NCBI RefSeq assembly: GCF_003991135.1
Contig: NZ_CP016379.1
Coordinates: 1,674,001 to 1,738,000 of the forward strand
Direction of reading: 5' to 3'
DNA: 64,000 bases
Origin: Anoxybacter fermentans
GTDB taxonomy: Bacteria > Bacillota > Halanaerobiia > DY22613
Under the pieces are notes generated by a model. The model was not told the origin of the DNA, searched no databases, and saw nothing but the letters and a program-made list of their open reading frames with translations. The stretch's first letter is position 1. The number at the start of each line of letters is the position of its first letter. Of the stretch, positions 6,812 to 58,984 are shown piece after piece. The position numbers were made by a program, and so were the translations under genes.

Positions 6812-7016
6812 GATTTTACTGTAAAAAACTAATTTTTCACTTCAAAAGAAATTCTTCGAATCATCTAAAGTTCGATTTCAGGGTAATCCATGGGTCTTTG
6901 ACCCATGGATTGGTTTATCAATACTGTGATCAGGCCTTATTTCTCCTTTAACCTCACCAAAATGGTTAAAAGAAAAATTTCAATGTCATTTAAAATTGGC
7001 TTTTTGTAGTTTAATT
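6812..7016 (-). repeat. Interspersed palindromic repeat, copy D, between ccdA and resA
   Basis: The ends are GATTTTACTGTAAAAAAC and GGCTTTTTGTAGTTTAATT. The arms match the family, but the central domain has a different large hairpin, AATCCATGGGTC paired with GACCCATGGATT. The element touches the ccdA stop codon (7015-7017) and separates ccdA from resA, so it would be transcribed if the two genes share an mRNA. Confidence 0.85.
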
Positions 7017-14960: not shown

Positions 14961-15027
14961 ATCTTTCAGCTCCTTTTAAATTATCAGATATATTTAAATT
15001 TTTTCATGTTTGTTGTTTTTAATCAAT

Positions 15028-15806
15028 GATTAAACTGCAAAAATATAGATATTTGATCTCCTAAGTTTGAATAAACATAATAAAAATTTCACAACAATAT
15101 GAATATTAGGCTTAATTGATACTTTTGTTATCAACTGAATTGGATTATCTTTATTTGCTGTTTCAGTAATAGTAACAGTATAACTCAGACAGGATTTGTT
15201 TCCTATTTTACGATAAATAACATCTTCATCAATAAGGTTTTGAAGGTATCAGCTGGAACATCTTTACCTTCTTTTACTATTAATTGATTTTCATAAATTA
15301 TAGTCTGACTTTTAAGTACACAACATATATGCTCATAAGCTTTATTATGAAATTTCGGATTATTCTTTAAACAATTTGCAAATTCAAAAATTTTCCCAGC
15401 CAATATCTCTAAAACCTCTTCATATTCTTTACCTTGCATTTTTTCTAAAAATTATCTAACTTTTTCCTTATCAGCTAATTTATAAATATTTTTTTACCAT
15501 GAACCAGCAAACAATTAATGAAATCAGCAATAACATTAAGCATTAATTCTGTATGGGAAAGCTTCTTCATGTATTTTAAGAATACTTTTTTGTAGAAAAT
15601 ACCTGTCATCCTTTTTCAATTCTTTTCCGGGAGGTGCTTTCAAGATTATTAACAAAACTAAATATCTTAAGTTGCTTATGAGCATCATTTTCTCTAAGTA
15701 TAATCAATCACTCCTGGATATAAATTATGTTTAATACTATTATATCAAACATTTGGGTACCTCGAACAAATTTTATTAGTTCTATTGACCATTTTGCAGT
15801 ATAATC
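15028..15806. mobile_element. Decayed insertion sequence with the same ends as the palindromic repeats
   Basis: The left end GATTAAACTGCAAAAA (15028-15043) and right end TTTTGCAGTATAATC (15792-15806) are inverted copies of each other. They match the terminal repeats of the palindromic repeat family. Between them is the relic of a transposase on the minus strand. At 779 bases it is far shorter than a full insertion sequence of this type, so it has lost internal sequence. No clear target duplication is seen. Confidence 0.65.
15070..15703 (-). pseudogene. Transposase relic, IS1182-like
   Basis: Frames joined across several stops and shifts read as one protein. The 15203-15439 frame ends ...QTIIYENQLIVKEGKDVPADTF. 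A second frame continues from about 15238 with IDEDVIYRKIGNKS, then YTVTITETANKDNPIQLI and TKVSIKPN. This resembles the DPDATFRKKG...GYVVNVTETCD...NPIQLIT pattern of IS1182/ISNCY-type transposases. Upstream fragments reach about 15703. The family call is from remembered motif patterns. No intact reading frame is left, so it cannot be active. Confidence 0.6.
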
Positions 15807-15938
15807 ATTTATATAATTATCTAATTAAATTTTATCTTTTGTTTAGATGTTTGTCAACATAAAAATGACATTTTAATGAAAAAAATAAAAGTGCAGCTTC
15901 TATACGGAAACTTCTTTCAATTCTTACTTTTTATATAT

Positions 15939-16088
15939 GATCAAACTGCAAAAAGCTAATTTTGAACGACATAGAAATTTTTAGTTTAACCATCTTAGTG
16001 AGATTTCAGTCGAAATAATGAAATCGAACTTTAGATGGTTCGAAAAATTTCATTATAAAGCGAAAAATTAACTTTTTGCAGTAAAATC
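15939..16088 (+). repeat. Interspersed palindromic repeat, copy F (short form)
   Basis: 150 bases, GATCAAACTGCAAAAAGC to AACTTTTTGCAGTAAAATC. Both arms are present with a reduced centre (CAGTCGAAATAATGAAATCG). It lies only 133 bases from the decayed insertion sequence that shares its ends. Confidence 0.9.
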
Positions 16089-24736: not shown

Positions 24737-24959
24737 AATTAAACTGCAAAAAGCTAATTTTGAGTGCCATAGAAATTTTTCGTTTAACCATCTTAGTGAG
24801 AATTCAGTCGAAATAAGGTCTCATATGAGGATTGATGAACTAATCAAGAGTCAGGAGAACCCATTGATTAGGGTGCCTTACTTCGACTGAAATCGAACCT
24901 TAGATGGTTCGAAAAATTTCTTTATGAAGTGAGGAAAATTAGCTTTTTGCAGTAAAATC
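24737..24959 (+). repeat. Interspersed palindromic repeat, copy G, with perfect 7-bp target duplication
   Basis: A 223-base full-length copy, AATTAAACTGCAAAAAGC to GCTTTTTGCAGTAAAATC. It is flanked on both sides by ATACTTT (24730-24736 and 24960-24966). The centre holds the variant hairpins ATGAGGATTGATGAACTAATC and CCCATTGATTAGGG. It lies between rodA and the frameshifted gene upstream of the M50 protease. Confidence 0.93.
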
Positions 24960-42285: not shown

Positions 42286-42469
42286 GATTAAACTGCAAAA
42301 AGCTAACATTGAAATTTTTCGTTTAACCATTTTGGTGAGATTAAAGAAGAAATAAGACTTCATCACAGTATCTGATGAATCAATCCATGAGACGAAAACC
42401 CATGGATTACTTTAGATGGTTAGAAAAATTTCTTTATGAAGTGAAAAATTAGCTTTTTGCAGCTTAATC
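42286..42469 (+). repeat. Interspersed palindromic repeat, copy I, with 6-bp target duplication
   Basis: 184 bases, GATTAAACTGCAAAAAGC to GCTTTTTGCAGCTTAATC. It is flanked by ACAGAT on both sides (42280-42285 and 42470-42475). The arms are shortened. The second central hairpin is of the AATCCATG.../CCCATGGATT type, as in copy D. Confidence 0.92.
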
Positions 42470-47797: not shown

Positions 47798-47871
47798 GAT
47801 TTTACTGCAAAAAGCTAATTTTTCAAACCATCTAAAGCTCGATTTCAAAATTAGCTTTTTGTAGTTTAATT
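47798..47871. repeat. Interspersed palindromic repeat, copy J (minimal form) with perfect 7-bp duplication
   Basis: Only 74 bases: GATTTTACTGCAAAAAGC, a piece of one inner arm (AACCATCTAAAGCTCGATTTC), then AAAATTAGCTTTTTGTAG and TTTAATT. It is flanked by ATAGAAT at 47791-47797 and 47872-47878. This shows that very short derivatives keep both ends. Confidence 0.92.
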
Positions 47872-54983: not shown

Positions 54984-55206
54984 GATTATACTGCAAAAAG
55001 CTAATTTTGAGCGACATAGAAATTTTTCGCCAAATCATCTTAGCGAGATTTCCGACAAAATAAGGCCTCATCACAGGAGGTAATGAGCTAGTTCTAAGGG
55101 CCAGGAGGGCCCTTTGTTTAGGAAGCCTTATTTCGGTGGAAATCGAGCTTTAGATGATTCGAAAAATTTCTCAAAAAGCGAAAAATTAGCTTTTTGCAGT
55201 TTAACC
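54984..55206 (+). repeat. Interspersed palindromic repeat, copy L (full length, reference copy)
   Basis: 223 bases, GATTATACTGCAAAAAGC to GCTTTTTGCAGTTTAACC. The flanks AAATAT (54978-54983 and 55207-55212) form a 6-bp duplication. Predicted structure: a long outer stem interrupted by internal loops, closed by AAATAAGGC/GCCTTATTT around two hairpins, CTCATCACAGGAGGTAATGAG and a GGGCC/GGCCC stem. It is co-linear with copy H and inverted relative to copies K and M. Confidence 0.94.
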
Positions 55207-58761: not shown

Positions 58762-58984
58762 GGTTAAACTGCAAAAAGCTAATTTTTCGCTTCTTGAGAA
58801 ATTTTTCGAATCATCTAAAGCTCGATTTCCGCCAAAATAAGGCTTCCTAATCAAAGGGCCCTCCTGGCCCTCAGAACTAGCTCATCACCTCCTATGATGA
58901 GGCCTTATTTCGTCGGAAATCTCGCTAAGATGATTTGGCGAAAAATTTTTATGTCGCTCAAAATTAGCTTTTTGCAGTATAATC
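58762..58984 (-). repeat. Interspersed palindromic repeat, copy M (full length)
   Basis: 223 bases, GGTTAAACTGCAAAAAGC to GCTTTTTGCAGTATAATC. It is nearly the reverse complement of copy L, so it is inserted in the other direction. It lies 21 bases upstream of the amidohydrolase start, between that gene and the ubiA relic, and may affect expression. Confidence 0.94.

Follow-up and report, generated by a model that had tools for sequence, protein, structure and literature searches.

The segment at positions 15028–15806 of the window (the whole 64-kb stretch of Anoxybacter fermentans DNA analysed here, G000:C1:1674001-1738000 of a one-contig, 3.56-Mb genome) is a defunct copy of an IS1182-like insertion sequence (IS) that has suffered internal deletions and has GATTNNACTGCRAAAA ends. 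Judging from the sequences compared here, we consider it quite probable that the transposase clade to which this relic belongs was once active in the lineage and spread the MITEs of the genome in trans, acting on the ends that the two have in common.

The ends of the element lie exactly where the first-pass annotation had placed the inverted ends of a repeat family, at 15028 and 15806, and they also flank a longer copy elsewhere in the genome. The left terminal inverted repeat, GATTAAACTGCAAAAA (15028–15043, plus strand), is located past the 3′ end of the transposase gene and matches position 1163 of the locus holding that longer copy (L007), while the right one, TTTTGCAGTATAATC (15792–15806, minus strand), is located upstream of the gene and ends at 15806; the arms at 15022–15042 and 15792–15812 are 90% complementary. 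Across the 64-kb window, 23 matches to the end motif were detected with up to three mismatches, compared to 2.3 expected, and none of 100 shuffles reached 23. The longer copy (G000:1188660-1190316, L007:1161-2817) carries the same inverted ends in the same relative orientation (18 bp, 94% complementary). The window element, which reads on the minus strand, aligns to it in three colinear blocks, a left block of 72 bp (94% identity), a block of 505 bp (86%) and a right block of 240 bp (85%), so that the window segment is an L007-type element that has lost internal stretches of ~640 and ~210 bp. Its length of 779 bp compares with 1,657 bp for the L007 copy, the longest in the genome, and with 1,870 bp for intact relatives. 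Three more fragments of the clade, at 1641059, 3302925 and 1429864-1430140, bring the genome to five copies, every one of them decayed. No target duplication could be recognised at the window relic or at L007, which is unsurprising given the age and decay of these copies.

Within the element, the first-pass annotation had reported a reading-frame relic, and both of its peptides are exactly present on the minus strand, IDEDVIYRKIGNKS at 15192–15233 and YTVTITETANKDNPIQLI at 15129–15182. Together (15129–15233) they fall in the part of the DDE domain that separates its two catalytic Asp regions and show 53% identity to residues 278–332 of a Halanaerobium saccharolyticum transposase. Fragments of the L007 copy score above the Pfam gathering cut-offs for DUF772, DDE_Tnp_1 and DDE_Tnp_1_6 (27.9, 23.1 and 28.8 bits), as does the intact relative L054 (33.6, 24.9 and 72.1 bits), and this domain order is the one found in the IS1182 family (NF033551). 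That family is also the best NCBIfam match of the main L007 fragment (E 8e-20) and of L054, in which residues 46–518 align to positions 35–487 of the 488 in the profile (E 1.3e-50), ahead of IS5_1 in second place (E 2.8e-18); with 71 and 172.7 bits, respectively, both remain under the curated IS1182 cut-off of 270 bits. A weaker, secondary match of L054 to ISNCY_1 (NF033593) covers the DDE domain with 63.1 bits (E 1.9e-17), under that family's cut-off of 325. The profile matches thus support an IS1182-like transposase, whose subgroup we leave unnamed, and uphold the earlier IS1182/ISNCY-type assignment, with IS1182 as the best, though sub-cut-off, match. In the ISNCY group, ISDol1 also makes 6–7 bp duplications.

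Compared with intact relatives, the window copy has lost both catalytic Asp regions, MDST (first) and VDGAY (second), as well as the Glu region (AAVEGTFSALKR), these putative catalytic residues being assigned by motif; lacking all three regions, it cannot itself be an active driver. The L007 copy likewise lacks the first Asp region, and stops and frame changes break the rest. No solved structures similar in sequence to the transposase were found.

Relatives of the relic were searched for in 60 related genomes, among which the best matches were two copies in H. saccharolyticum MA284_T2 (G045). These 1,870-bp elements are 90% identical to each other, contain 530-aa open frames whose product shares ~42% amino-acid identity with the relic, and are bounded by perfectly inverted GATTGCACTGCGAAAA ends and by direct repeats in the 6–8 bp range, ATAGAT and ATTTTAAT. 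Similar ends were seen in a frame-broken copy from an uncultured Halanaerobiales genome (L056 and L157, which represent one insertion), flanked by the 6-bp repeat AACTAT/ATAGTT; in G044, a copy is bounded by GATTCTACTGAAAAAA/GATTGCACTGAAAAAA and flanked by ATTATT, again 6 bp. More distant relatives, at 27–32% identity, have different ends, such as GATTGTACCACAAAAA and GGTTTGGTCCCAAAAA. In a tree built without unalignable copies, the relic grouped with the GATTNNACTGC-ended copies with 100/100 support, a grouping to be read with caution because the relic branch is long; a tree including L102 and the 521/551-aa elements described below was left unresolved by their overlong branches. A search of named genomes with the relic fragment alone returned nothing. 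Ends of the H. saccharolyticum type were also observed ~100 bp or less from contig ends in G035 (for example, L150:2365 and L151:2288) and in contigs C3, C57 and C61 of G045, suggesting that additional IS copies are collapsed in these assemblies.

The repeats sharing these ends are short (under about 500 bp), have terminal inverted repeats, lack a transposase and exist in many copies, the properties by which MITEs are recognised. Genome-wide, the extended MITE end was matched with up to three mismatches at 516 sites on one strand and at 538 on the other, with no match to a reversed control pattern; these ~1,050 ends suggest roughly 500 elements, one per 7 kb, as estimated from end counts. The main classes, of 135 bp and 221 bp, are near-complete hairpins whose copies share, on average over all pairs, 90% and 87% identity, respectively. 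A direct repeat of 6 bp or longer, starting exactly at GATT/AATC, flanks 46 of 94 copies, compared to at most four copies when the boundary was moved by one base or more, and shuffled flank pairs yielded ~1.4 such cases on average and six at the maximum (1,000 shuffles). The duplications are 6–7 bp long and A+T-rich, usually with AT at the end. None of the 60 related genomes yielded a match to the MITE body.

In the window, MITEs with the same ends as the relic include a hairpin-type element of 150 bp in its neighbourhood (15939–16088); four with target duplications, of 223 bp (24737–24959, ATACTTT), 184 bp (42286–42469, ACAGAT), 74 bp (47798–47871, ATAGAAT) and 223 bp (54984–55206, AAATAT); and two without an intact duplication, of 223 bp (58762–58984) and 205 bp (6812–7016). 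The dinucleotide at the two variable positions of the MITE ends (GATTNN) is AA, TT or AT in most cases, in the window as in L113–L142, and the two ends of a single copy are often unlike, with AA on one and TT on the other. Elements of 213–220 bp with ends like GATTCTACTGCRAAAAG and 6–7 bp direct repeats were also observed in G012 and G017, which belong to other genera of the same class (L145:2561-2779, L146:2401-2620, L147:2377-2589); no relic-transposase matches were found in these two genomes. Co-location of relics with MITEs was dropped as evidence because MITE density is too high, and fragment L101 was rejected as an IS–MITE intermediate, because the MITE end beside it is in the wrong orientation and seems to belong to another, decayed MITE.

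MITEs and intact IS copies agree in end sequence, in boundary and in the length of the duplication. The proposal that the non-autonomous repeats are tied to a specific transposase type is supported by shared ends, by intact relatives that carry them and by matching 6–8 bp duplications. No intact transposase of the relic clade was found in the genome, so that mobilisation of the MITEs would belong to the past; the search for an intact same-ended IS1182-like element in this genome, proposed beforehand as a check, turned up decayed copies only, with intact relatives in other species. When MITEs were compared with the relic copies by BLAST, only short terminal matches of up to 29 bp were obtained, and nothing was visible beyond the terminal ~16 bp. 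Since the ends are common to MITEs and IS and the interiors are not, shared transposase specificity is supported and a simple deletion origin is not. The parent-and-derivative relationship put forward in the first-pass annotation thus stands in part: the end comparison supports the relic clade as the ancestral driver of the MITE ends, but the MITE interior does not visibly derive from the IS, and the MITEs are not supported as internal-deletion derivatives of it.

The genome also contains ~17 intact IS1182-type elements of about 1,780 bp, encoding 521 or 551 aa (for example, L081:1379-3161 and L096:1352-3131), and the 16 with paired ends carry GGGGCTGTCCCAAAAGT or a close variant. A palindrome, CCCAAAAGTAATTGATTACTTTTGGG, was noted near one end of the intact element, and the L096 copy has the 20-bp direct repeat TTTTTAACAGAGTTAAAGAA on its flanks. 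That these elements, rather than the relic clade, move the MITEs might be suggested by the fact that no other IS1182-type transposase in the genome is both abundant and intact; however, their ends differ from those of the MITEs, their copies are mostly without 6–7 bp direct repeats, and their transposase has no significant alignment to the relic (E 5.6), which marks them as another clade with its own ends and makes this explanation very unlikely. Intact elements of the same type with different ends had been named beforehand as evidence against the proposed link; taken literally, they are present in at least 16 copies, but these belong to the different clade.

Given that MITEs with these ends are dense locally, one of them only ~130 bp away, and that the relic lacks a target duplication, it could be asked whether two separate MITE fragments at 15028 and 15806 flank an unrelated transposase remnant by chance. 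We regard this as improbable in the extreme: intact relatives in other genera bear such ends, and the second copy, at L007, joins both ends to the same interior in the same order, which rules it out. Less easily dismissed, though still unlikely, is a history in which MITEs and the IS clade share ends by common descent and the MITEs owe their amplification to another autonomous element that has since disappeared and whose ends were closely related, such as one with the extended end ACTGCAAAAAGCTAATTTT. The match between MITE and relic ends for ~16 bp followed by divergence would fit such a history, as would the similar-ended short elements in genera whose genomes gave no relic-transposase match; against it, no such element was found, and among the end pairs examined in this genome, no clade other than the relic's was seen to combine such ends with the size of an IS.

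Under the preferred reading, in which the relic clade was the driver, its DDE transposase would recognise GATTNNACTGCRAAAA ends and excise the element, presumably by cut-and-paste, and insertion would duplicate 6–8 bp of an A+T-rich target, usually ending in AT. While active, this transposase most likely mobilised the 135- and 221-bp hairpin MITEs in trans through putative recognition of their ends, bringing them to their present abundance. With the clade known in the genome only as its five decayed copies, the MITEs are now probably stranded, and presumably immobile. Somewhat more tentatively, we favour the broader picture of a separate, unnamed IS1182-like subgroup, defined by GATTNNACTGCRAAAA ends and true 6–8 bp duplications and present in several Halanaerobia, which here would have undergone a lineage-specific burst to ~500 hairpin MITEs followed by decay, leaving the MITEs orphaned.

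Pairings of this kind are already known. In Methanosarcina acetivorans, MITEs of 160–169 bp share ends with the IS1182-family element ISMac2 (PMC3852290), but these number 7–14 copies and have direct repeats of 0–4 bp (PMC3852290), compared to roughly 500 copies and 6–7 bp here. High copy numbers are likewise familiar from the bacterial MITEs ERIC and Correia, ERIC reaching up to 711 copies in Photorhabdus luminescens (PMC10969869); these too are dispersed palindromic elements in many copies, but they are different repeats, and in the present case a decayed candidate parent clade has been identified. The points of interest are accordingly the pairing itself, the copy number for this type of partner and the fact that the driver seems to have been lost. 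Published descriptions present the IS1182 family as a heterogeneous one in which some members target palindromes; IS1272 is among these and reportedly replaces them (PMC5678879). The direct 6–8 bp duplications of the relic-clade IS contrast with this palindrome replacement within one family. A very abundant bacterial repeat family would thereby be tied to a specific clade of transposases, whose intact relatives are amenable to laboratory tests, and the genome may offer a case of MITEs outlasting their driver, useful for understanding how MITE amplification proceeds and stops.
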